From NCBI RefSeq assembly GCF_006274605.1, contig NZ_CP040846.1, forward strand, positions 310,001 through 374,000: a DNA stretch of 64,000 nucleotides. Reading direction: 5' to 3'. Made by a program: the position numbers and the translations under genes. This document shows, piece by piece, positions 30,198 to 46,016 of the stretch (position 1 is the stretch's first letter; every line of letters starts with the position of its first letter). The notes beneath the pieces were generated by a model. It did no database searches. It saw only the letters and a list, made by a program, of their open reading frames with translations, and was not told where the DNA came from. Source of the stretch: Thermococcus indicus (lineage in GTDB: Archaea > Methanobacteriota_B > Thermococci > Thermococcales > Thermococcaceae).

Positions 30198-31141
30198 TGG
30201 AGGAGCTCCCGCACCGTTCTCTTCACGGCCCCGTAGCTGTTGAGCCTTGGCCTCCAGCCGGTTTCCTTCGCCTTCTCTATGCTCAGGCGCATGAATTTGA
30301 CGTCCCCCTTCCAGCCGCGGCCGCCGTCGACGCCGCCGGTGAAGCGGAACTCCGGCTCTAGTCCCATCCCCTCGCTGACTATCTCCGCTATCTCCCTCAC
30401 CGTTATCCAGTCGTCGTTGCCGAGGTTGTAGAAATCGACCGTTTTATCGCTCCCCCTGAAGTGCTCGAAGATCTTAAGCATTCCATCAACGGTGTCGCTC
30501 ACGTGGAGGTAGCTCTTCCTCTGGGTTCCATCTCCAAGTATCTCAAGCTCCTCCGGGTTCTTCCTGAGCTTGTTTATGAAGTCGTAGATGACCCCGTGGT
30601 TGGAGCGCTCGCCTATGATGTTGGCCAGGCGGAATATCAGAGCTTTGAACCCGAAGGTATGGGTGTAGCCGCTGATTAAAGCTTCGGCGGCCAGCTTTGC
30701 CCCGCCGTAGACGCTTATCGGCTCGAGCGGGGCGTAGTCCTCGGGCGTTGGAATCACAGATGCGTCGCCGTAGACCGTCGATGAGCTCGTGAATATGAGG
30801 TATTTGGCCTTTGAGTCCCTCATCGCGTTGAGCAGGTTGTAGGTTATCAGCACGTTTGTCTCGTAGAGCAGCTCCGGGCTCTGGGAGCCTATTCTAACCT
30901 CGGGGTTCGCCGCGAGGTGGAAGACGGCATCGACGCCCTCAACGGCCTCCTCAACGATCCCCGGGTCCCTCATGTCTCCCTCGATGAACTCAAAGCGCTC
31001 GTGGTTCAGCCACCGCCTTATGTTTTCCAGACTGCCCGCACTGAGGTCGTCGAGAACCCTGACCTCCCAGCCAAGCTCCATGAGTTTATCCACCAGGTGT
31101 GAGCCTATGAACCCGGCACCTCCCGTTACCAGGACCTTCAT
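30179..31141 (-). CDS. NAD-dependent nucleotide-sugar epimerase (GalE-like)
   Basis: About 320 residues from ATG 31141, chosen because MKVLVTGGAGFIGSH places the Rossmann GxxGxxG (7-13) at the N-terminus and GGTGG lies upstream; the longer frame to 31267 is not needed. The extended SDR catalytic residues Y145-x3-K149 are in SVYGGAKLAAE, with S119-S121 upstream. The family interconverts UDP-glucose/galactose or related sugars. A TATA-like TTTAATA lies about 35 bases upstream. It is divergent from mntA. Confidence 0.9.
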   Translation of the reverse strand: MKVLVTGGAGFIGSHLVDKLMELGWEVRVLDDLSAGSLENIRRWLNHERFEFIEGDMRDPGIVEEAVEGVDAVFHLAANPEVRIGSQSPELLYETNVLITYNLLNAMRDSKAKYLIFTSSSTVYGDASVIPTPEDYAPLEPISVYGGAKLAAEALISGYTHTFGFKALIFRLANIIGERSNHGVIYDFINKLRKNPEELEILGDGTQRKSYLHVSDTVDGMLKIFEHFRGSDKTVDFYNLGNDDWITVREIAEIVSEGMGLEPEFRFTGGVDGGRGWKGDVKFMRLSIEKAKETGWRPRLNSYGAVKRTVRELLHHIESP

Positions 31142-31223
31142 TCGTACCACCAAACCTATTGATGTGGTCAGGCTATTAAACTTTGGGGAAAGTTTTTTGT
31201 ATCCTTCCAGCGGAGTTAACCAC

Positions 31224-31628
31224 ATGAAAGTGTACCGTCTCTCGATTCCGGAGCGGGATGCCCTCAAGGAGCGGATAAGGGCGTGCCTTGCGTCCAGGGA
31301 GGAGGTTCTCTTCGCGTACCTTCACGGTTCTTTCCTGGAGAACCGTCCTTTTAGGGATATAGACGTTGCGGTTTTTGTGGGGTCAAAACCGGGCCGATTT
31401 TATGAGATGGAGCTTGAAGATGAGCTATCAAGGTTAACCGGATTTCCGGTTGATGTGAGGCTGCTGAACGATGCCCCCGTGGAGTTTAGGTTTCATGTTA
31501 TCGGCGGGGAGCTCATCTTCAGCAGGGACGAAAAGGCCAGGTGTGACTTTGAAGAGAGGACTATGAGGGAATACCACGATTATTCCCACTACCTCGAACT
31601 GTACCGGAGGGAGGCCCTTGGAATATGA
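31224..31628 (+). CDS. mntA: MntA-type minimal nucleotidyltransferase antitoxin
   Basis: 134 residues from ATG 31224. The MNT signature GSFLENRPFRDIDVAVF has GS at 35-36 and metal ligands D45/D47; a second acidic residue lies in VDVRLLND. In characterised pairs MntA AMPylates the HEPN toxin on its tyrosine. It overlaps the HepT gene by 11 bases. A frame extending 250 bases upstream runs antisense into galE and is not real. Confidence 0.9.
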   Translation: MKVYRLSIPERDALKERIRACLASREEVLFAYLHGSFLENRPFRDIDVAVFVGSKPGRFYEMELEDELSRLTGFPVDVRLLNDAPVEFRFHVIGGELIFSRDEKARCDFEERTMREYHDYSHYLELYRREALGI

Positions 31629-32037
31629 TACCGAAAAGGTAACCCGGCTCATGGTGGAAGCCAGGAACGCACTGGATGCCCTTTATGAGCTTGCGAAACT
31701 CCCCCGGGAAGAGTTCCTTGGCAGCAGGCATTACGTTTCGAGTGCCAAGTACAACCTCCTGGTTGCGATCGAGGCGTGCATTGATATAGCGTACCATTTG
31801 ATTTCAAAAAACCGCATGAGGCTTCCAAGGGATTATGCTGACTCTTTCAGGGTTCTTCAGGAGAACGGAATCCTCGACGGGGAGCTGACCAGACGGCTCA
31901 TTCTGATGTCCCGCTTTAGAAATCGACTGGTGCATATATATTGGGAAGTTGATGACGAGGTTATCCATTCGATAATAAACGAGAACCTCGGGGACATTGA
32001 GGAGTTCCTCACGCGGATTGTGGAAATAATCAAATGA
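31618..32037 (+). CDS. hepT: HepT-type HEPN ribonuclease toxin
   Basis: A 139-residue all-helical HEPN protein, TTG start. The catalytic R-x4-H-x-Y motif is complete: R101, H106 and Y108 in RNRLVHIYW. Family members cleave RNA unless the tyrosine is AMPylated by MntA. The pair sits between two nucleotide-sugar genes; the stop overlaps the following upstream region of the pyrophosphorylase gene. Confidence 0.9.
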   Translation: MEYDTEKVTRLMVEARNALDALYELAKLPREEFLGSRHYVSSAKYNLLVAIEACIDIAYHLISKNRMRLPRDYADSFRVLQENGILDGELTRRLILMSRFRNRLVHIYWEVDDEVIHSIINENLGDIEEFLTRIVEIIK

Positions 32038-33087: not shown

Positions 33088-33144
33088 GGGAAAGGAATAC
33101 ATCATCTTTCAGACGTGATGTTTTCAGACGACGTTAGAAGGAGT

Positions 33145-33304
33145 GAGGAGTGCCCCGTCGGAAAGGCTGGAGTTAAGTTCCACTCTTTACGGGCCTTCGC
33201 CATTAAATGCAATCCACGACCCCTCACGAATCATGGATCGCGTTTCAGTTCCGGTCCGCAGCCGGGTGAAGCTTTCGCTTCAGTCTCCCCGCGGGACACT
33301 CCTC
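33145..33304 (-). ncRNA. Putative structured non-coding RNA (about 160 nt)
   Basis: On the minus strand the 5' end GAGGAGTG (33297-33304) pairs with CACTCCTC at the 3' end (33145-33152); four further CCCG/CGGG pairs extend this closing helix after one U.G. Inside are a six-pair stem with a GAAA tetraloop (UGAAGC-GAAA-GCUUCA, 33267-33282) and a nine-pair stem (33211-33219 with 33231-33239). A consensus TATA box lies exactly 26 bases before the predicted 5' end. There is no open frame. GC content is well above the AT-rich flank. I cannot match it to RNase P, SRP, or box C/D or H/ACA guides. Confidence 0.65.
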
Positions 33305-33325
33305 AAATACATGTAGGGTCTTTAA

Positions 33326-33334
33326 CTATATAAA
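33326..33334 (-). promoter_or_regulatory. TATA box for the putative ncRNA
   Basis: Minus-strand TTTATATAG in an AT-rich context, centred 26 bases upstream of G33304, where the closing helix begins. Positions 33335-33512 otherwise contain only AT-rich DNA and the aglB leader. Confidence 0.65.
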
Positions 33335-33512
33335 TCTTTGCTTTTAATTAAAACAAAATTTTTTTGAAATAATTCGAAATAATTCTGTCCCCGCTGGACC
33401 CTTTCCCCACGCTCAACGGAGGTGGGTAACTCATCCGGTGGTTGCGCAACGCTTTTATTACTCTGTGATGGTAGTGAACTGGAGGATAAATTACCGCGAG
33501 AGGGGAACTTTA

Positions 33513-35894
33513 ATGGGACGGTGGTTGAGATCTGAAACGGCATCCTTTCTTTACCGGAAGCTCATCGAGCCGAAGTTCGCGGCCACCATCATAGCCGTTA
33601 TCGCCCTCGTTCTCAGGCTCCTCCCCATGCGCTTTAAGTACCTCCTCGGCTACGACCCTTACTTCCACCTCGCCTACATCAGGTACTCCCTTGAGCGGGG
33701 GGAGTGGGTGAACTTCATCACCTACGCTGGGGGGCCGTGGGGGTTCCGGATCACAGGATTCCATCCCTTGGGCCTGTGGATGGCGCCGGCTTATGTTTAC
33801 AAGTTCCTTTCGGTCTTTGGCGTCTCGCTCTACAACGCCTTCAGGATAACACCCGTCATCTTCGGCCTTCTCACCGTACTGTTCACGTACTTCGCCGTGC
33901 TGAGGCTCCACGGCAAAAGGGAGGCCTTCCTCTCTGCCTTCCTCCTGGCGGTGAGCTTCGGCCACGTCTTCCGCTCGATGGCCGGCTACTACCGCGGCGA
34001 CAACTACATGCTCTTCTGGTACAGCGCGGCGCTCCTTGGAATCGCCGTTCCTCTCTCCCTCAGGGGCCCCCGGTGGAGGAACGCCCGGCTGACCATCTAC
34101 ATCCTTCCGGGAATCTTCGCCGGCCTTTCCGCGGCCTTCTGGCAGGCTTACTACCCAATATTCGCCATCGTTACCGCCAACGCCCTGCTCATCGCGGTTG
34201 GTGGCTTCCTTCTCGGGAGGGACAGTTACCTGAGGGACGCGCTGGTTCTCGTAGCCTCCCTGGCCGCCGGCGCCCTTCTGGCAAACTCAATAGGCTCCCA
34301 CCTCGGGTACGGCATGGTGGGCTCAACCCGCTGGCTCGGGAAGAAACTGGCGGAGGAGCTCGGGGTTCAGTTTGGATTTATCGGGGACCTCTTCCTTTTG
34401 CTGTACCTTAAATACATCATTCCCCTAACAGCTGCGGCGGTTCTTGCCCTCCTGGCTCTTTCCAGGCTGGTTCGCGGCAGACGGGCTAGGGGCGCGGTGG
34501 TTCTTCTTGGAGCCGCCGCCTCCATCTGGCTTGCTTTCAGATACTACGGCGTCATAAACGATGCCTTCCTCCGTCTGTTCCCCACCAGCCCGATAGCCGA
34601 GACTCAGAGAACCTCCTTTGGGGATTGGTGGGAGGCCTACGGCATCGCAGGACTGCTCGTACCGCTGTTCTTCCTGCGCTTCCTTAAACGGCCGAAGATG
34701 GGGGATTTTCTCCTCCTGGGCACTGCCATCGTCATGATACCGATGGCCGTCGTCTGGACGAGGTTCCTCTTCATATCCTCCCTCGCAGTAGCCACCATGG
34801 CCGGCATCGGGCTGGTGGCCCTCTATGATACGGCGGGTGCTTTGATTGAGGGTGTCCTTGAGAACAAACGAAGATGGCTCTCCGCTGCCCTCCCCCTGCT
34901 TCTGGTTGGCGTTCCTGCCATCTCGGCCTATCAGGGAACCAGCACGACCATGGCCGTTCATCCGTTTGTGACGGAGGAGGGGGAGTCCGCGCTGACTTAC
35001 CTGGGTGAAATCTCCAGCCCCAACGACGTCGTCCTGACCTGGTGGGACCAGGGACACTGGGTGACCTACTACTCGATGAGGCCCCCCGTTGCCCAGGGCG
35101 GCCCCAGCGGGTGGGTGGCCAAGTATTATCTGGGACTGGTGAATGAGAAGGGCCTGATGAACGCGGGCGTTGACTACGTCATCGTCTCCTACGACACCCT
35201 GACGAAGTTCGGGGCGGTCGTCGATACCGCGGGTGTCTCCTCCGGAGACTACGTCCTGATGGTTCTCCCCTGGGCGGGTTCCTACGGCAACCTCATGGTA
35301 TTCTCCAGCGGCTCTTACTCGGTCATGGCCGCCCCCGGCGGAGGGGAGTGGGACGTCAAGGTTCGTGCAGGGAAGGGCGTCGTGATACCCGGGAGGGTGT
35401 TCGTTGAGAGGGGGGACGTCGTTAGGGAGGTGAACGTCTCGGGAACGCCAAAAGCCGATGCCTACGTTTACATCAACCTGAACTACGGCTACGCCGTTCT
35501 GATGAACGGAAAAGCCTTCGACACCCCCCTAGCGCGGCTGATGTTCACCGACGATTACCCAGGGAACTACACCCCCGTGTACTCGGACGGTGGTTACGTT
35601 AAGATATTCCGCTTTGAGCACCCGAACGTTGCCGTTGCCGCGGAGAACGGTTCCATCGTTCTCAGGTTCACCAACGCCACCGGAACCGGCCTCGGGATCT
35701 ACGGCTACCTCGACAACGGCACGCTCGTCTTCAAGAGGTGGTACGGCGTCGGTGGAAAGGATGCGTTTGTGCTCCCGGCTGACATCAACGGGAGCGTCGT
35801 CGTGAGGTACGTCTACGTCCGGAAGAAGACGGTGCTGGATAGGGGGGTTTTCAGGATAGACGATGTACTATTTGGTGCAGGTGGTACGGATTAA
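33513..35894 (+). CDS. aglB: Archaeal oligosaccharyltransferase AglB (short form)
   Basis: About 793 residues from ATG 33513 (GAGAGGGG eight bases upstream). It transfers lipid-linked oligosaccharide to Asn of N-x-S/T sequons outside the cell. Thirteen-odd membrane helices fill residues 1-430; the first-loop metal aspartate is in LGYDPYFHLAY and the second acidic motif in YYRGDNYM. SPIAETQR is the external-loop TIXE/SVSE equivalent. WWDQG at 510-514 recognises the sequon, followed by a beta-rich periplasm-side domain. It neighbours nucleotide-sugar genes and the sulfate cluster. Confidence 0.95.
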   Translation: MGRWLRSETASFLYRKLIEPKFAATIIAVIALVLRLLPMRFKYLLGYDPYFHLAYIRYSLERGEWVNFITYAGGPWGFRITGFHPLGLWMAPAYVYKFLSVFGVSLYNAFRITPVIFGLLTVLFTYFAVLRLHGKREAFLSAFLLAVSFGHVFRSMAGYYRGDNYMLFWYSAALLGIAVPLSLRGPRWRNARLTIYILPGIFAGLSAAFWQAYYPIFAIVTANALLIAVGGFLLGRDSYLRDALVLVASLAAGALLANSIGSHLGYGMVGSTRWLGKKLAEELGVQFGFIGDLFLLLYLKYIIPLTAAAVLALLALSRLVRGRRARGAVVLLGAAASIWLAFRYYGVINDAFLRLFPTSPIAETQRTSFGDWWEAYGIAGLLVPLFFLRFLKRPKMGDFLLLGTAIVMIPMAVVWTRFLFISSLAVATMAGIGLVALYDTAGALIEGVLENKRRWLSAALPLLLVGVPAISAYQGTSTTMAVHPFVTEEGESALTYLGEISSPNDVVLTWWDQGHWVTYYSMRPPVAQGGPSGWVAKYYLGLVNEKGLMNAGVDYVIVSYDTLTKFGAVVDTAGVSSGDYVLMVLPWAGSYGNLMVFSSGSYSVMAAPGGGEWDVKVRAGKGVVIPGRVFVERGDVVREVNVSGTPKADAYVYINLNYGYAVLMNGKAFDTPLARLMFTDDYPGNYTPVYSDGGYVKIFRFEHPNVAVAAENGSIVLRFTNATGTGLGIYGYLDNGTLVFKRWYGVGGKDAFVLPADINGSVVVRYVYVRKKTVLDRGVFRIDDVLFGAGGTD

Positions 35895-36240: not shown

Positions 36241-37380
36241 ATGGTCTCAAAGCCCCACGGAGGCAGGCTCGTCAGAAGGCTCGTTGCCGAGAGAACCCGC
36301 GAGAGGATTCTGGGCGAGCAGAAAGAATACCCCCGCGTCCAGATCGAGCATGGTCGCGCTATAGACCTTGAGAACATCGCCCACGGCGTTTACTCGCCCC
36401 TCAAGGGCTTCCTCACAAGCGACGACTTCGAGAGCGTCCTCGACCACATGCGCCTGAGCGACGACACGCCCTGGACGATTCCGATAGTGCTCGATATCAA
36501 AGAGAAAACCTTCGACGAGGGCGACGCGATACTCCTGTATTATGACGACCTGCCGATAGCCAGGATGCACGTCGAGGAGATTTACACCTACGACAAGAGG
36601 GAATTCGCGGTCAAGGTCTTCAAGACCGACGATCCGGCCCACCCGGGTGTCGCCAGGGTTATGAACATGGGCGACTACCTCGTCGGCGGCGAGATTGAAC
36701 TCCTCAACGAGCTCCCGAACCCCTTCGCGAAATACACGCTCAGGCCAGTTGAGACGAGGGTTCTCTTCAAGGAGCGCAGATGGAAGACGATAGTCGCCTT
36801 CCAGACGAGGAACGTTCCCCACCTCGGCCACGAGTACGTCCAGAAAGCTGCTCTTACCTTCGTCGACGGCCTCTTCATCAACCCCGTCCTCGGGAGGAAG
36901 AAGAAGGGCGACTACCGCGATGAGGTCATAATCAAGGCCTACGAGACGCTCTTCGAGCACTACTATCCCAAAGATGCGGCAACCCTCGCCACAGTCCGCT
37001 ACGAGATGCGCTATGCCGGACCAAGGGAAGCCGTTCACCACGCAATAATGAGGAAGAACTTCGGTGCGACGCACTTCATCGTGGGAAGGGACCACGCAGG
37101 CGTTGGCGACTACTACGGGCCCTACGAGGCATGGGATATGTTCAGCAACTTCCCCGACCTAGGCATAACTCCGATGTTCATCCGTGAGTCCTTCTACTGC
37201 AGGAAGTGCGGCGGCATGGTCAACGCGAAGATATGCCCCCACGACAGGGAGTTCCACATCCACATAAGCGGTACCAAGCTCAGGAAGATGATAATGACCG
37301 GCGAAAAGCCGCCGGAGTACATGATGAGGCCGGAGGTCTTCGAGGTCGTGAGGAGCTTCGAGAACCCGTTTGTGGAATGA
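36241..37380 (+). CDS. sat: Sulfate adenylyltransferase (ATP sulfurylase)
   Basis: A 379-residue enzyme forming adenosine 5'-phosphosulfate from ATP and sulfate. The PUA-like N-domain (residues 1-160) is followed by the catalytic domain with QTRNVPHLGHEYVQ (QxRN and HxxH) and VGRDHAGVGDYYGPYEA. A CRKCGG...CPHD cluster near 320-337 may bind zinc, as in thermophile enzymes. It heads a cluster with a DHH hydrolase, an AlkP-family enzyme, APS kinase and a TauE permease. Confidence 0.96.
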   Translation: MVSKPHGGRLVRRLVAERTRERILGEQKEYPRVQIEHGRAIDLENIAHGVYSPLKGFLTSDDFESVLDHMRLSDDTPWTIPIVLDIKEKTFDEGDAILLYYDDLPIARMHVEEIYTYDKREFAVKVFKTDDPAHPGVARVMNMGDYLVGGEIELLNELPNPFAKYTLRPVETRVLFKERRWKTIVAFQTRNVPHLGHEYVQKAALTFVDGLFINPVLGRKKKGDYRDEVIIKAYETLFEHYYPKDAATLATVRYEMRYAGPREAVHHAIMRKNFGATHFIVGRDHAGVGDYYGPYEAWDMFSNFPDLGITPMFIRESFYCRKCGGMVNAKICPHDREFHIHISGTKLRKMIMTGEKPPEYMMRPEVFEVVRSFENPFVE

Positions 37381-37427
37381 AGCAAAACGTTATTACATTT
37401 TCAGTTTATTTTCTAGTGGTGACGAAA

Positions 37428-37607
37428 ATGGAGGAAGTTGAGGTAGTTTACGAGAACGGTGTCTTTAAGCCCCTGAAAAAGGTTAATCTCAAGGAAGGCA
37501 CTCACGGAAAAGTAATCCTCGAGCTTGGGTTAGCTGACATCATTGAAAAATTCGGCAAGAAGGTAGAGAAAGATGCCCTCAGAGAGTTCCTGGAGGAGCG
37601 GAGATGA
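37428..37607 (+). CDS. AF2212-like (DUF104) antitoxin
   Basis: 59 residues from ATG 37428 with GGTGA upstream. The beta-rich start EEVEVVYENGVFKPLKKVNL is diagnostic for the AF2212/DUF104 VapB class; a helical tail (EKDALREFLEERR) would bind the toxin. It overlaps the PIN gene by four bases. The pair interrupts the sulfate cluster. Confidence 0.85.
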   Translation: MEEVEVVYENGVFKPLKKVNLKEGTHGKVILELGLADIIEKFGKKVEKDALREFLEERR

Positions 37608-38050
37608 TAGTGGTAGATACCTCCGTCTTCATCGACGCTATCTTTGAGTACAGAGAGGAGAGAACAGCCATTGCAAGGAAACTTTTCAGAACTCTCCAGG
37701 AGGCAAAGACTCAGGTCTTAGAACCCGATGTTTTCAAGATAGAATTGATAGGACAGCTAGTCCGGAGAATGGAAGTTCAAAAAGCCATGAACCTGTACGA
37801 GCTCCTGATTGGGAGAGTCGAGACCGTGAACACGGCCAAGTTAAAGGAAGTGGCGTTTGAAATCGCACTCAAAACCGGGTGCAGGGCCATCGACTCGTTC
37901 TACATAAGCGTTGCCCACTCCCGAAACGCCATCTTGGTCTCCAATGACAGGTTTCAGGTTGAGAGCGCCTTAAAATACGGAATCAAGGCGTTTTATCTAC
38001 TTGAAGAATGGCAAGAGTTAAATAAACTTCTGAAAAATCGGGTTGGGTGA
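37604..38050 (+). CDS. vapC: VapC-type PIN-domain ribonuclease toxin
   Basis: A 148-residue PIN protein. Acidic metal ligands are D5 in VVDTSVFIDAI, E47-type Glu in VFKIELIGQ, D97-type Asp in RAIDSFYIS and D114-type Asp in VSNDRF. PIN toxins cleave tRNA, rRNA or mRNA. It is coupled to the DUF104 antitoxin just upstream. Confidence 0.88.
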   Translation: MIVVDTSVFIDAIFEYREERTAIARKLFRTLQEAKTQVLEPDVFKIELIGQLVRRMEVQKAMNLYELLIGRVETVNTAKLKEVAFEIALKTGCRAIDSFYISVAHSRNAILVSNDRFQVESALKYGIKAFYLLEEWQELNKLLKNRVG

Positions 38051-38055
38051 GTTAG

Positions 38056-38991
38056 GTGAACCTAATCGTCCACCACTGGGACACCGACGGAATAACCTCG
38101 GCGGCGCTTCTCGTGAGGGCACTGAAGCTCGATGAGTTCACCAACATGACGGCACCGATAGGCGAGTTCCGCTTTGACGGGCGGATTTGGGAGGCAATTG
38201 AAAAGGCCGAGAGGCTCTATGTCCTCGACTTCAACGTTCCAGGCGAGGTTGAGAAGGTCAAGGTTCCGACTCTCTTCATCGACCACCACACCCAGCCTAG
38301 AATAGGGAATCCGCTCGTCGAGCAGATAAACCCCTCCCTGAACGGGGAGTACTGGCCGGCCAACTCCCTCGTCGTCTCGGAGCATTTTGGAATATGGAAC
38401 GCCTGGAGCGCCCTCGGCGTCGTTGGGGATATAGGGGAAAAGGCCTTCGAGCTGGAGGGGGTCAGGAAGCTCCTTGATAGGGAGGGACTACCGCGGGAAG
38501 GGGCTTTAAGGCTCGTCGAGCTTATCGATTCAAACTACATAACGATGGACAGGGGAGCGGTCGAGGAGGCCGTTTACGTCCTCCTGGGACACGATGTCAG
38601 GGAACTCCTCGAATACGAGCCGTGGGTACGGAAGGCGGAGGCCATAAGGGAGGCCATTGAAGAGGCCGTCTCAAGCGCCGAGGAGCGGAACGGCTTCGCC
38701 ATCGCTCACTTCGAGAGTCCCTTCAACATAATCTCAAAGGTTGCCAGAAAGCTCGTCTGGGAGCTAGGTTACAGGGGTGCGGTGGTCATCAACGGGAACT
38801 TCCAGGGAAAGGGGCAGCTCTACTTCAGGATCTCCGGCGAGGAAGCGGAGAGAATAAACATGGGAGAAGTCATCGAACGCATTAAAGCCCTCGGAACCAA
38901 CGCCGGCGGCAAGAGAGAGGTTTTAGGCTGCGTCTGCGGGAGGGATAAAATCGAAGACGCGCTCAAGATCGTTGAAGAATACCTGAGGTGA
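38056..38991 (+). CDS. DHH-family phosphoesterase
   Basis: A 311-residue DHH protein with GTG start. HHWDTDG (residues 6-12, D9 and D11) and FIDHHT (D76-H77-H78) are the metal-binding motifs, and a C-terminal DHHA1-like domain ends GKREVLGCVCG. DHH enzymes include nanoRNases and pAp-phosphatases. Next to APS kinase a pAp-clearing role is attractive, but this is inference. It overlaps the following gene's upstream region. Confidence 0.85.
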   Translation: MNLIVHHWDTDGITSAALLVRALKLDEFTNMTAPIGEFRFDGRIWEAIEKAERLYVLDFNVPGEVEKVKVPTLFIDHHTQPRIGNPLVEQINPSLNGEYWPANSLVVSEHFGIWNAWSALGVVGDIGEKAFELEGVRKLLDREGLPREGALRLVELIDSNYITMDRGAVEEAVYVLLGHDVRELLEYEPWVRKAEAIREAIEEAVSSAEERNGFAIAHFESPFNIISKVARKLVWELGYRGAVVINGNFQGKGQLYFRISGEEAERINMGEVIERIKALGTNAGGKREVLGCVCGRDKIEDALKIVEEYLR

Positions 38992-38996
38992 GGGAA

Positions 38997-40427
38997 ATGG
39001 AGTTTGAAAGGAAGGTTAAGGAGGGAATGGAGCGGACGAAGAAGGTGCTCGTCATAGGCCTCGACTCCGCCCCGCCGGAGCTGCTCTTCAACCGCTTCAT
39101 CGACGACATGCCTCACGTGAAGAAGCTCCTCGGAAAGTCCGTCTACGGCCCGATGCAGACGGGAATTCCGGCGATAACCATTCCGATGTGGATGGTGATG
39201 GTCACCGGCAAGACGCCGGGCGAGCTCGGCCTCTACGGCTTCAGGCACAGAACCGGCTATTCCTACACAGACTACTGGATAGCCCACAGCAAAAAGGTCA
39301 AGGAGCCGACCCTCTGGGACTACCTCGGCGAGCGCGGAAAGAAGTCGATAATCGTCGGCGTTCCTCCGACCTACCCGCCAAAGCCCATAAACGGCCACCT
39401 CGTGAGCTGCTTCATAACCCCTGATGCCAGCGTGGACTACACATACCCAAAGGAGCTCAAGGGCGAGATCGAGCGCCTGGTCGGCGAGTACATCTTTGAC
39501 GTCCCCTTCAGGAGGGAAGCCAAAGACGAGGTCAAGGAAGGCATCTGGGAGATGACGGAAAAGCGGTTCGAGGTCATCCGCTACCTCATCCAGGAGAAGG
39601 AGTGGGACTACTTCCACTTCGTCGAGATAGGCCTTGACCGGCTCCACCACGCCTTCTGGCGCTACTTCGATGAAAACCACCACCTCTACCCGGGTAAGGG
39701 GAACAGGTACGAGAGCGTCATTCCGGACTACTACAGGCTCTTGGACAAGGAGATAGGAGAGACGCTCAAGCTCGTAGACCTCGACGAAACAGCCGTCTTC
39801 ATAGTCTCCGACCACGGGATAAAGGCCATGCACGGCAACTTCGCGGTCAACCAGTGGCTGGCGGAGGAGGGCCTGCTGAAGGTCAGGAACCCCTCCGCTC
39901 TGCACGACGGGAAGGTCAAGCGCTTCGAGAGCCTCGACGTGGACTGGAAGGAGACCATCGCTTGGGGATGGGGCGGCTACTACTCAAGGGTTTTCCTCAA
40001 CGTCCTCGGCAGGGAGAGGGAAGGGAAGATACCGCTCTCCAGGTTCGAGAAGGTAAGGGACGAGGTTGCCGAGCAGATACGCTCCATACGCGGCCCGAAC
40101 GGCGAGAGGTGGGACACGAAGGTGTTCTACCCCGAGGACATCTATCCGATAGCGAAGGGAAGCAAGCCGGACATAATGGTCTACTTCGACAACCTCAACT
40201 GGCGCGCGGCAGGAACCGTCGGCCACCCAAGCAACTATCTACCGGAAAACGACACCGGGCCTGACGACGCGAACCACTCAGAGTTCGGAGTGTTCTCTAT
40301 GTACTTACCTGGCTTCGACGAGAGCAAGGCAACCCGGCTCACCATCTACGACTTTGCCCCGACAATGCTTAGGCTCTTCGGCATAGAGGAGCCACTCGCT
40401 GGAATGCACGGGAGGAGCATCCTCTGA
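38997..40427 (+). CDS. Alkaline-phosphatase-superfamily phosphodiesterase/nucleotide pyrophosphatase
   Basis: About 476 residues from ATG 38997; GTG 38988 is an alternative. VIGLDSAPPELL carries the first metal Asp, PAITIPMWMVMVTGK the nucleophile Thr region (ITIPMW), and IVSDHGIKAMHG the second metal cluster. Superfamily members hydrolyse phosphodiesters, phosphomonoesters or sulfate esters. Placement between DHH and cysC suggests a role with sulfonucleotides or sulfated products. Confidence 0.85.
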   Translation: MEFERKVKEGMERTKKVLVIGLDSAPPELLFNRFIDDMPHVKKLLGKSVYGPMQTGIPAITIPMWMVMVTGKTPGELGLYGFRHRTGYSYTDYWIAHSKKVKEPTLWDYLGERGKKSIIVGVPPTYPPKPINGHLVSCFITPDASVDYTYPKELKGEIERLVGEYIFDVPFRREAKDEVKEGIWEMTEKRFEVIRYLIQEKEWDYFHFVEIGLDRLHHAFWRYFDENHHLYPGKGNRYESVIPDYYRLLDKEIGETLKLVDLDETAVFIVSDHGIKAMHGNFAVNQWLAEEGLLKVRNPSALHDGKVKRFESLDVDWKETIAWGWGGYYSRVFLNVLGREREGKIPLSRFEKVRDEVAEQIRSIRGPNGERWDTKVFYPEDIYPIAKGSKPDIMVYFDNLNWRAAGTVGHPSNYLPENDTGPDDANHSEFGVFSMYLPGFDESKATRLTIYDFAPTMLRLFGIEEPLAGMHGRSIL

Positions 40428-40475
40428 CTTTCAATCTTTCGCCTTCCAATCAACGGCTGAAGCGAGGTGGATGGA

Positions 40476-41021
40476 ATGGACGAGCTGAAGAACCTTGAGA
40501 AGGGATTCACCATCTGGCTCACGGGGCCGAGCGGTGCCGGGAAGACAACCCTGGCCGTGAAGCTCGCGAGGAAGCTCAGGGAGATGGGCTACCGGGTTGA
40601 AATACTCGACGGGGACACGATAAGGAAGACCCTCTATCCGAACCTCGGATTTTCCAAGGAAGCCAGGGAGATGCACAACCGCGTTGTCATTCACATGGCC
40701 AAGCTCCTCAGCAGGAACGGGGTCATAGCCATAGTCTCGCTGATCTCGCCCTACAGAGCGGTGAGAGAGTACGCGAGGAAGGAGATAGGGAACTTCATGG
40801 AGGTCTACGTCTACGCCCCCCTGGAGGTGAGGATCCAGCGCGACCCCAAGGGGCTTTACGCGAAGGCGTTGAGGGGAGAGATAAAGGGCCTGACCGGCTA
40901 CGATGGCGTCTATGAGGAGCCTGAAAACCCCGAGGTAAAAGTGGACAGCTCGAAGATGACGCCCGAGGAGGAAGTCGCGGCTGTAATAGAAAAGGCCCAA
41001 GAGCTCGGTTACCTACCGTGA
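40476..41021 (+). CDS. cysC: Adenylylsulfate kinase
   Basis: 181 residues from ATG 40476 with GAGGTGG upstream. P-loop GPSGAGKTT at 17-25, then DGDTIRKTLYPNLGFSKE, the APS-binding signature. It phosphorylates APS to PAPS, the universal sulfate donor. Followed by a TauE permease; sat lies upstream in the same orientation. Confidence 0.95.
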   Translation: MDELKNLEKGFTIWLTGPSGAGKTTLAVKLARKLREMGYRVEILDGDTIRKTLYPNLGFSKEAREMHNRVVIHMAKLLSRNGVIAIVSLISPYRAVREYARKEIGNFMEVYVYAPLEVRIQRDPKGLYAKALRGEIKGLTGYDGVYEEPENPEVKVDSSKMTPEEEVAAVIEKAQELGYLP

Positions 41022-41036
41022 ACGGGGGGTAAGGCC

Positions 41037-41777
41037 TTGAACCCGCTGACCTTCGTAGGACTGGGCTTCCTCGTCGGCTTTCTCGTGGGCCTAACGGGGG
41101 TCGGCGGCGGGGCTCTGATGACCCCTTCCCTCATATTTCTCGGTGTTGAACCCCTAACGGCAGTTGGAACCGACCTGCTCTACGCCACCGTCACGAGAAT
41201 CTTCGGCGTTTTCTTCCACGGGAGGAAGGGCAGGATAAGGTACGACATAGCGCTCCGCCTCCTCGCTGGAAGCGTCCCGGCGGTAATCCTGGGTGGGGTA
41301 ATCCTCCGCGGGATAGATAGGAACGCCCTCAACGATTATCTAACCCTCCTCCTGGGTGTTATTCTGGTCGTCAGCGCGGTTCTGAGCCTCCTCAAGGGCG
41401 AATTCAGCTTTTCTGTGAGGCCAAGGTGGGCCTACGTTTACCTCCTAGGCTTCATCGTTGGCCTGACGGTTCAGTTCACCTCCGTCGGTGCCGGCGTTAT
41501 AGTGAGCTTCACCCTTATGAACGTCGCCAGGCTCGACCCGAAGGACGTGGTTGGGGTGACGATAACCTACGGGTTAGCGCTTTCTTCCCTCAGCTTCCTG
41601 AACTACGCGGGAATGGGAAGCGTGGACTACCACCTCGCGGGAACCCTTATCCTCGGAACGATCCCCGGGGTTTACCTCGGCACTCACGTGAACCGTGCAA
41701 CGGACAGGGAGAAGCTTAAAAGGGCCATGAACGTGATAATCCTGCTGATCGGACTGTTCACGCTGCTGGGCGGGTGA
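41037..41777 (+). CDS. TauE/SafE-family permease (sulfite/sulfonate type)
   Basis: A 246-residue membrane protein with seven to eight helices in two TauE repeats (FLVGFLVGLTGVGGGALMTP; GFIVGLTVQFTSVGAGVIVS). TTG start behind GGGGGGT. These proteins move sulfite or organosulfonates; being last in the sulfate cluster it may import or export a sulfur anion. Confidence 0.85.
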   Translation: MNPLTFVGLGFLVGFLVGLTGVGGGALMTPSLIFLGVEPLTAVGTDLLYATVTRIFGVFFHGRKGRIRYDIALRLLAGSVPAVILGGVILRGIDRNALNDYLTLLLGVILVVSAVLSLLKGEFSFSVRPRWAYVYLLGFIVGLTVQFTSVGAGVIVSFTLMNVARLDPKDVVGVTITYGLALSSLSFLNYAGMGSVDYHLAGTLILGTIPGVYLGTHVNRATDREKLKRAMNVIILLIGLFTLLGG

Positions 41778-44621: not shown

Positions 44622-45913
44622 CCATCAAACTCCAACCCTCAAAGGAGCAGGCGAAAATCCTCTCCAAGTTAGCCGACGCTGGAGCCAAAGTCTGGAACAG
44701 AGTAAACTTTCTCAGACGACAACAATACTTCAAAGAACAAATCGTGGACTTCAATTCGACCGAGAAAACCGTTTATGAAGAGTTTAAGAGGGAAATTGGT
44801 TCTGCTACAGTCCAGCAAATAGCGAGAAAAAACGCTGAAGCTTGGCGGAGTTACTTCTCCTTATTAAGGAAAAAGCGGAATGGAGAACTCCCCAATTGGC
44901 TTAAACCTCAACCACCAAACTACCTGAAAGAAGACGGGAGGAGGAAACCCTTAATCGTTCTCAGAAACGACCAGTACAAAATTGAAGGGAACAAGCTTAT
45001 CCTCAAAGGTCTTGGAAAGTTCAAACGCTTGGAAGTTCAATTCAAGGGAAGAATACACCTGAAGGGCAAGCAAGGGCGGTTGGAAGTAACCTACGACCCC
45101 GTAAAGCGGAAGTGGTATGCTCACCTAAGCCTCATAGTCGAGGAAAAACTTGAGGGTGGAGAATGGGTTAAACTCCCAAGAACACCAAAGGGGGACCTTT
45201 CAGCGGGAATTGATTTAGGGGTAAACAACTTGATGGCCGTTTATGTCGAGAATGGGGAGAGCTTTCTGGTCAATGGAAGGCCCCTCAAGAGTATTGACTT
45301 CTACTGGCGGAGGAGGATTGCTGATTACCAGTCAAAACTCAACAAGTCGGGCTGTAAAAAGAGTAGAAAACTCAGGAGAATGCATGAGAAGGCCAAACTT
45401 CAGGCGAAGCACTACATCAACACGGCGGTAAGACAGACTGTTAAGAAACTCTATGAGCTTGGAGTTTCTAAAATCGTCGTGGGTTATCCGAAAGGCATAG
45501 CTCGGAATTCTGATAAGGACAAAAGGCAGAATTTTATCATCTCTCACGTGTGGCGGTTCAATACGGTTATTAAACGTTTAACCGAGGTTGCTGAGGAGTA
45601 TGGTATTCGAGTTTTGGTTGTTAATGAGGCTTTCACGTCTAAGCTTTGTCCCGTTTGCGGGAAGCCCCATGAGAGGGCTCGTTTTGTTCGGGGTTTATTT
45701 AAGTGTCCCGTGACGGGGCTTATCTTCAACGCTGACTTGGTTGGAGCGTTTAATATTTTAAAGAAGGTTGTGGGAACCATAACCCCGAGCTTGGGTGGTT
45801 TGTATGCCCAAGGGAGGGGTAACTGGGGGAAGACCGTCCCAGAGGGGTTCGAAGAACCCTCTCTGAGGGTTGCCCTGATGAGAACCCCTCAAACCTCCCT
45901 GCCAGTTGGGTAG
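44606..45913 (+). CDS. tnpB: TnpB RNA-guided nuclease (RuvC type), start codon degenerate
   Basis: The homologous frame begins KRTVTIKLQPSKEQAK right after ACG at 44606-44608, where family members have ATG; the first standard start is GTG 44744, which would remove about 46 residues. RuvC residues are D in SAGIDLGVNN, E in VVNEAFTS and D in FNADLVGAFN. A zinc-finger CPVCGKPH...FKCPVTG has lost the fourth Cys. About 435 residues if read from 44606. TnpB with its omega-RNA cleaves DNA beside a TAM and keeps the element in place. Confidence 0.85.
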   Translation, partial: TKRTVTIKLQPSKEQAKILSKLADAGAKVWNRVNFLRRQQYFKEQIVDFNSTEKTVYEEFKREIGSATVQQIARKNAEAWRSYFSLLRKKRNGELPNWLKPQPPNYLKEDGRRKPLIVLRNDQYKIEGNKLILKGLGKFKRLEVQFKGRIHLKGKQGRLEVTYDPVKRKWYAHLSLIVEEKLEGGEWVKLPRTPKGDLSAGIDLGVNNLMAVYVENGESFLVNGRPLKSIDFYWRRRIADYQSKLNKSGCKKSRKLRRMHEKAKLQAKHYINTAVRQTVKKLYELGVSKIVVGYPKGIARNSDKDKRQNFIISHVWRFNTVIKRLTEVAEEYGIRVLVVNEAFTSKLCPVCGKPHERARFVRGLFKCPVTGLIFNADLVGAFNILKKVVGTITPSLGGLYAQGRGNWGKTVPEGFEEPSLRVALMRTPQTSLPVG

Positions 45914-46016
45914 GGGGTTCCCCGCTGGAACCCTCGCCCTTCAGGGCGGGGAGGAGGTCAGTAAGAGGGCGATATGTTTTTAATGCCACATGTTCACAAT
46001 CTTTATGGTGTGAGAA

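Follow-up and report, generated by a model that had tools for sequence, protein, structure and literature searches.

Does the minus strand around positions 33145-33334 of the analysed stretch encode a structured non-coding RNA and, if so, does this RNA belong to any known family? The window is the whole 64,000-nt stretch of Thermococcus indicus DNA (NZ_CP040846.1, positions 310,001 to 374,000). An earlier note, made from the sequence alone, proposed an unassigned structured RNA gene of about 160 nt with pairing ends, a GAAA-capped stem, a TATA box and flanking nucleotide-sugar and aglB genes. We therefore studied first whether the element is real, then whether it is conserved as an RNA and as a gene of its own, and finally what it might do.

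First, we folded the minus strand of 33145-33334, which yields an energy of -83.3 kcal/mol compared to -55.9 +/- 4.3 for shuffled sequences (z -6.3, 0/200 as low). The RNA gene spans 33143-33305 (minus strand, 163 nt, TGAGGAGTG...CACTCCTCAC) and folds into a compact multi-branched structure. It starts and ends in a closing helix (P1), whose 5' strand covers 33285-33305 (RNA 1-21) and whose 3' strand covers 33144-33165 (RNA 141-162). That is, the closing helix is real but longer than the 12 positions given in the earlier note (about 20 pairs). The GAAA-capped stem is the P2 hairpin UGAAGC-GAAA-GCUUCA (33267-33282), followed by an arm composed of P3 (5' strand 33253-33258, RNA 48-53; 3' strand 33190-33195, RNA 111-116), P4 and the long distal stem P5 (33209-33241, RNA 65-97). 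A last hairpin, P6 (33170-33185), shows a conserved loop core RAACUY (here GGAACUUA between GAGU and ACUC). The element has a GC content of 58%, while the 100 bases upstream have 28%. The note's statement that the element contains no open frame needs a small correction, since the opposite strand carries a 72-codon open frame (33115-33333). It is kept only in close relatives and copies differ in length by non-multiples of three, such that we do not take it for a gene.

Next, we tested whether the element is a diverged member of a known family, i.e., RNase P, SRP, an H/ACA or C/D guide, a TnpB omega-RNA or HgcC/SscA, since GC-rich stable RNAs with paired ends are common in Thermococcales. None of the 4227 models of Rfam 15, including those of RNase P and SRP RNA, matches the RNA in the window or in 13 homologous loci at the gathering threshold. 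Also for E-values up to 10 only chance hits were observed (E 1.4 or worse). No canonical kink-turn was found, but guide boxes and kink-turns were looked for by eye only, which leaves this point open for the guide RNAs. Overall, we consider membership in one of these families very unlikely. Searches of plasmid, phage and viral collections gave no match either, while an exact 20-mer search of genome contigs found four Thermococcales MAGs plus three chance bacterial hits.

We then searched for homologues. With blastn, the element was found in 14 of 61 genomes. A covariance model built from 14 sequences (R1) found it in 38 of 94 Thermococcaceae genomes, covering six of six genera, but in none of the other 21 genomes of the phylum that were searched. 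The weaker, more distant hits were used alone to build a second model (R2), which finds 40 of 94 genomes and recovers the R1 set independently. That is, two models from disjoint sets detect each other's members. The window copy scores 175.6 bits with R1 (E 1e-38) and 60.1 bits with R2 (E 9e-12). Since P1 is almost symmetric, weak antisense hits occur, but these are explained by the P1 repeat and not by genes on that strand; the respective scores in the window are 175.6 (sense) vs. 52.1 bits (antisense). When using laxer filters, 30 genomes without a strong hit still show no convincing copy, except for a remnant in one genome (G034; genomes are named by their working labels).

To assess whether selection acts on the structure, we counted base pairs that change on both sides. 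For clade 1 (24 sequences), 94.5% of the cells are paired and 20 of 43 pairs show two-sided change (shuffled mean 12.6, 0/500 reaching this). For clade 2 (18 sequences), the respective values are 96.1% and 23 of 53 (shuffled 11.6, 0/500). Sliding the partners by 1-3 columns leaves only 34-51% paired. These alignments were fitted to the models, so the counts lean somewhat towards the structure. A MAFFT alignment not fitted to a model gives the same picture (22 of 53, shuffled 10.0), though its structure was derived from that same alignment. Two-sided changes are found in 10 of 20 pairs of P1, 5 of 6 pairs of P3 and 4 of 6 modelled pairs of P5, which evolves fast in sequence while its pairing is kept. 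In contrast, P2 is almost invariant in sequence in both clades.

We also compared G-U with A-C cells among the paired positions, since G-U on this strand would be A-C on the other. G-U cells far outnumber A-C cells in both clade 1 (142 vs. 26) and clade 2 (158 vs. 20), so the constraint acts on the minus-strand RNA and not on a DNA cruciform. This bears on the alternative of a DNA-level element (MITE, cruciform or recombination site) with terminal inverted repeats TGAGG...CCTCA. In its favour, there is a long inverted repeat, the element is found at several sites within one gene region, and two copies in genome G081 (loci L074, 2028-2187, and L075, 2025-2184) are identical exactly between the repeat ends. 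The strand-specific G-U excess, the far lower antisense score, a promoter conserved outside the repeat at fixed distance, mostly one copy per genome and mostly vertical inheritance speak against it. While target duplications were not examined, we regard this alternative as largely refuted and very improbable.

Next, we investigated whether the RNA is its own gene. A TATA box TTTATATAG is located at 33326-33334 (minus strand), 29 nt before the first base of the conserved element (33305). TTTATATA begins 27 to 29 nt before the conserved first base in 44 of 47 copies; in addition, a degraded TTTGTATA is found at -28 in G016 and TTTACATG at -27 in the G081b copy, such that only G008 has none. An extended upstream promoter element (33335-33387, minus strand, AATTATTTCGAA...TTTTGTTTTAATTAAAAGCAAAG) is conserved in 26 clade-1 copies, which share about 45 bp. 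Its core plus TATA, searched with up to three mismatches in 94 genomes, matches 23 times, every time in front of this RNA and never in a genome without it. That is, no regulon sharing the promoter was found. The 3' end is followed by a T-rich stretch.

To study the history of the gene, we mapped its presence on an rpoB tree of 70 genomes. Here, 10 changes are needed compared to 23.6 for shuffled labels (0/500), which rejects random patchiness or horizontal spread as the main history. Copies are on average 59% and at least 39% identical, with the fold kept. Clade 2 sequences belong to one deep branch plus a deep-branching Thermococcus (G031), while clade 1 belongs to one large Thermococcus clade plus one Pyrococcus-like genome. 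A sister clade of 19 Thermococcus genomes lacks the RNA, yet G034 inside that clade keeps the promoter and the last ~45 nt of the RNA, fused by an internal deletion (locus L013, near 1501-1547). The simplest history is presence in the ancestor of the family Thermococcaceae and repeated loss.

Some genomes carry more than one copy. G080, G079 and G074 show a second subtype in tandem about 320 nt upstream of the first (L071 2333-2488, L072 2273-2429 and L073 2342-2498, respectively), which is 87-96% alike among the three genomes but only about 60% like the first copy. G004 and G081 carry a second copy elsewhere. The two G081 copies are 27.8 kb apart and identical over exactly the 160-nt RNA, while flanks and promoters differ and one promoter is degraded (TTTACATGG). 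This points to gene conversion or a similar homogenising process, whose borders at the RNA ends are unexplained.

We then evaluated the genomic neighbourhood. In the window, the RNA lies between a convergent NDP-sugar nucleotidyltransferase (PF00483, 32034-33050, plus strand) and the divergent aglB oligosaccharyltransferase gene (AglB/STT3, plus strand, open frame 33438-35894, probable ATG at 33513 matching homologues), in accordance with the earlier note. A linked sulfate-activation cluster follows (36241-41777, plus strand) with ATP-sulfurylase (36241-37380), phosphodiesterase (38988-40427), APS kinase (40467-41021) and TauE exporter (41037-41777). Inside this cluster, a probable VapBC-type pair was observed, i.e., a small protein followed by a PIN-domain protein (PF01850; 37206-38050, plus strand). 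On the other side, a small open frame that looks like an MNT-type nucleotidyltransferase followed by HepT (PF01934) forms a likely HepT/MNT toxin-antitoxin pair between the epimerase and the nucleotidyltransferase (30972-32037, plus strand), and similar frames occur near the RNA in other genomes.

Immediate neighbours change between genomes (nucleotidyltransferase, epimerase, AglB, Gfo/Idh oxidoreductase, UDP-sugar dehydrogenase, ATP-sulfurylase, TauE, ATPases) and no protein partner is constant; ATPases, AbiEi and HepT/MNT recur but are not general. The nucleotidyltransferase family is found near 25 of 39 RNA loci and AglB beside the RNA in several genomes. Next to the RNA in G097 (locus L107, 207 to 2963 relative to the RNA), a UDP-sugar/GDP-mannose dehydrogenase gene shows what looks like an intein insertion. 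In four genomes (L071-L073 and L084 regions, gene cluster c18), a membrane-anchored protein of 217-259 aa made of repeated V-P/D-V/L-like segments and without a Pfam match is located beside the RNA. Nevertheless, 35 of 39 loci (the window, 37 RNA loci and the G034 remnant) lie within 10 kb of the sugar-nucleotide/AglB/sulfate-activation cluster, in all six genera. Of the exceptions, three are second copies and one (G102) lies by other sugar genes. Two of the second copies (G004, G081) lie 400-473 bases before a family-2 glycosyltransferase.

The changing neighbours also bear on the possibility of a leader, attenuator or antisense RNA acting only on a neighbouring gene. Its promoter diverges from aglB and its 3' end points at the tail of the nucleotidyltransferase gene. 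However, neighbours are of many unrelated families while RNA and promoter stay the same, the next gene is usually convergent, and in most loci no gene follows in the same direction, such that this reading is very unlikely. The absence from many genomes, island neighbours including archaeal ATPases, AbiEi-like and HepT/MNT genes, as well as second copies and tandem paralogues would fit a selfish, addiction or defence RNA carried in a variable genomic island, which we consider improbable but a rival.

We also tested for co-occurrence with proteins of the cluster. ATP-sulfurylase is present in 34 of 36 RNA-bearing and 15 of 34 RNA-lacking genomes of the tree (Fisher p 4e-6, ignoring relatedness). 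With relatedness taken into account, phylogenetically independent pairs are 3-5 concordant to 0 discordant in nearly all pairings, which is not significant, and co-deletion of one island could explain the association. Two RNA-bearing genomes (G014, G102) lack ATP-sulfurylase, while in several genomes the two genes lie more than 100 kb apart and are both kept (e.g., G008, G010, G027, G074). The linkage could be only an ancestral position. This is a lead, not proof. AglB-like matches were found in all 75 genomes searched, so AglB presence says nothing.

Taken together, we are nearly certain that this is a genuine gene for a non-coding, strand-specific structured RNA of about 160-180 nt, ancestral to the family, vertically inherited and repeatedly lost, whose independent transcription is inferred from its conserved promoter without expression data. 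The reading of the earlier note is thus supported. With the ends closed in P1, nearly all bases paired, and the conserved unpaired bases located in two short hairpin loops and the junction, we infer that the RNA behaves like a scaffold or protein-bound RNA more than a seed-pairing sRNA. Our preferred but tentative reading, inferred without a test of protein binding, is a long-lived RNA that acts in trans bound by protein, with the P2 and P6 loops as contact points and the variable P3-P5 arm as a spacer or a species-specific specificity part. That it serves, or is regulated with, surface glycosylation and sulfation is suggested by the linkage but remains doubtful. The main rival is a base-pairing regulatory sRNA whose loops or variable arm pair with mRNAs, perhaps those of the neighbouring glycan genes, and change their translation or decay. 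The stand-alone gene with a conserved, possibly regulated promoter and the linkage to glycan genes would agree with this, and such sRNAs apparently occur in archaea. Since there is no long conserved unpaired seed, most bases are in helices kept by compensatory change and neighbouring genes differ between genomes, we consider it unlikely, although targets were not searched systematically. It is also conceivable, but rather unlikely, that the RNA is the founding member of a new functional class, i.e., an ancient archaeal RNP RNA made from a dedicated promoter that controls or takes part in cell-surface glycan sulfation/N-glycosylation.

Stable structured RNAs that have survived since the ancestor of an archaeal family are few, and most are known housekeeping RNAs. 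Here, the novelty is at the level of the RNA family, which is new to Rfam 15, while its mechanism may still prove to be of a known sort. Natural losses, a promoterless copy and duplicated copies make genetic comparison easy.

Finally, we compared the RNA with known systems. Orphan ncRNAs are reported from dRNA-seq of T. onnurineus NA1, with 57 intergenic ncRNAs, 22 of them given an Rfam function (PMC5316973), and of T. kodakarensis (PMC4247193). Neither main text, as far as searched, describes this structure or family. T. onnurineus seems to carry two tandem copies, given that G074 probably is this genome judging from its length, such that its transcripts may be among the intergenic ncRNAs without an Rfam name. 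The sRkB/sRkC, sRk48, sRk52 and sRk33/SscA RNAs of Pyrococcus abyssi (PMC3124441) are also structured Thermococcales ncRNAs (100-343 nt) with own promoters. However, sRk48/52/B/C relate to OrfB transposons and several bind L7Ae, while sRk33 is unique and about 100 nt; most complete Pyrococcus-group genomes lack our RNA. More generally, the published HgcC, SscA/sRk33 and sRk11/28/48/52/B/C (PMC3124441, PMC4247193) differ in origin, context and distribution. HgcC (RF00062), likewise a GC-rich stable non-coding RNA of hyperthermophilic archaea, is present in the window at 45853-45974. There, it overlaps the 3' end of a tnpB/orfB-type gene (PF01385 plus Cas12f1-like TNB domain; 44744-45974, plus strand) and looks like the omega-RNA (right end) of an IS605/IS607-type element, and several copies come from transposase genes in T. 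kodakarensis (PMC4247193). In contrast, our RNA is stand-alone with its own promoter, no tnpB was found among the immediate neighbours examined, and its models do not credibly match this HgcC (R1 without hit, R2 11 bits, E 0.64). Bacterial 6S RNA, as an analogy only, has about the same length, a long closing helix and a stand-alone gene; no binding of our RNA to polymerase is known, and 6S is one long hairpin with a bubble while this RNA is multi-branched.
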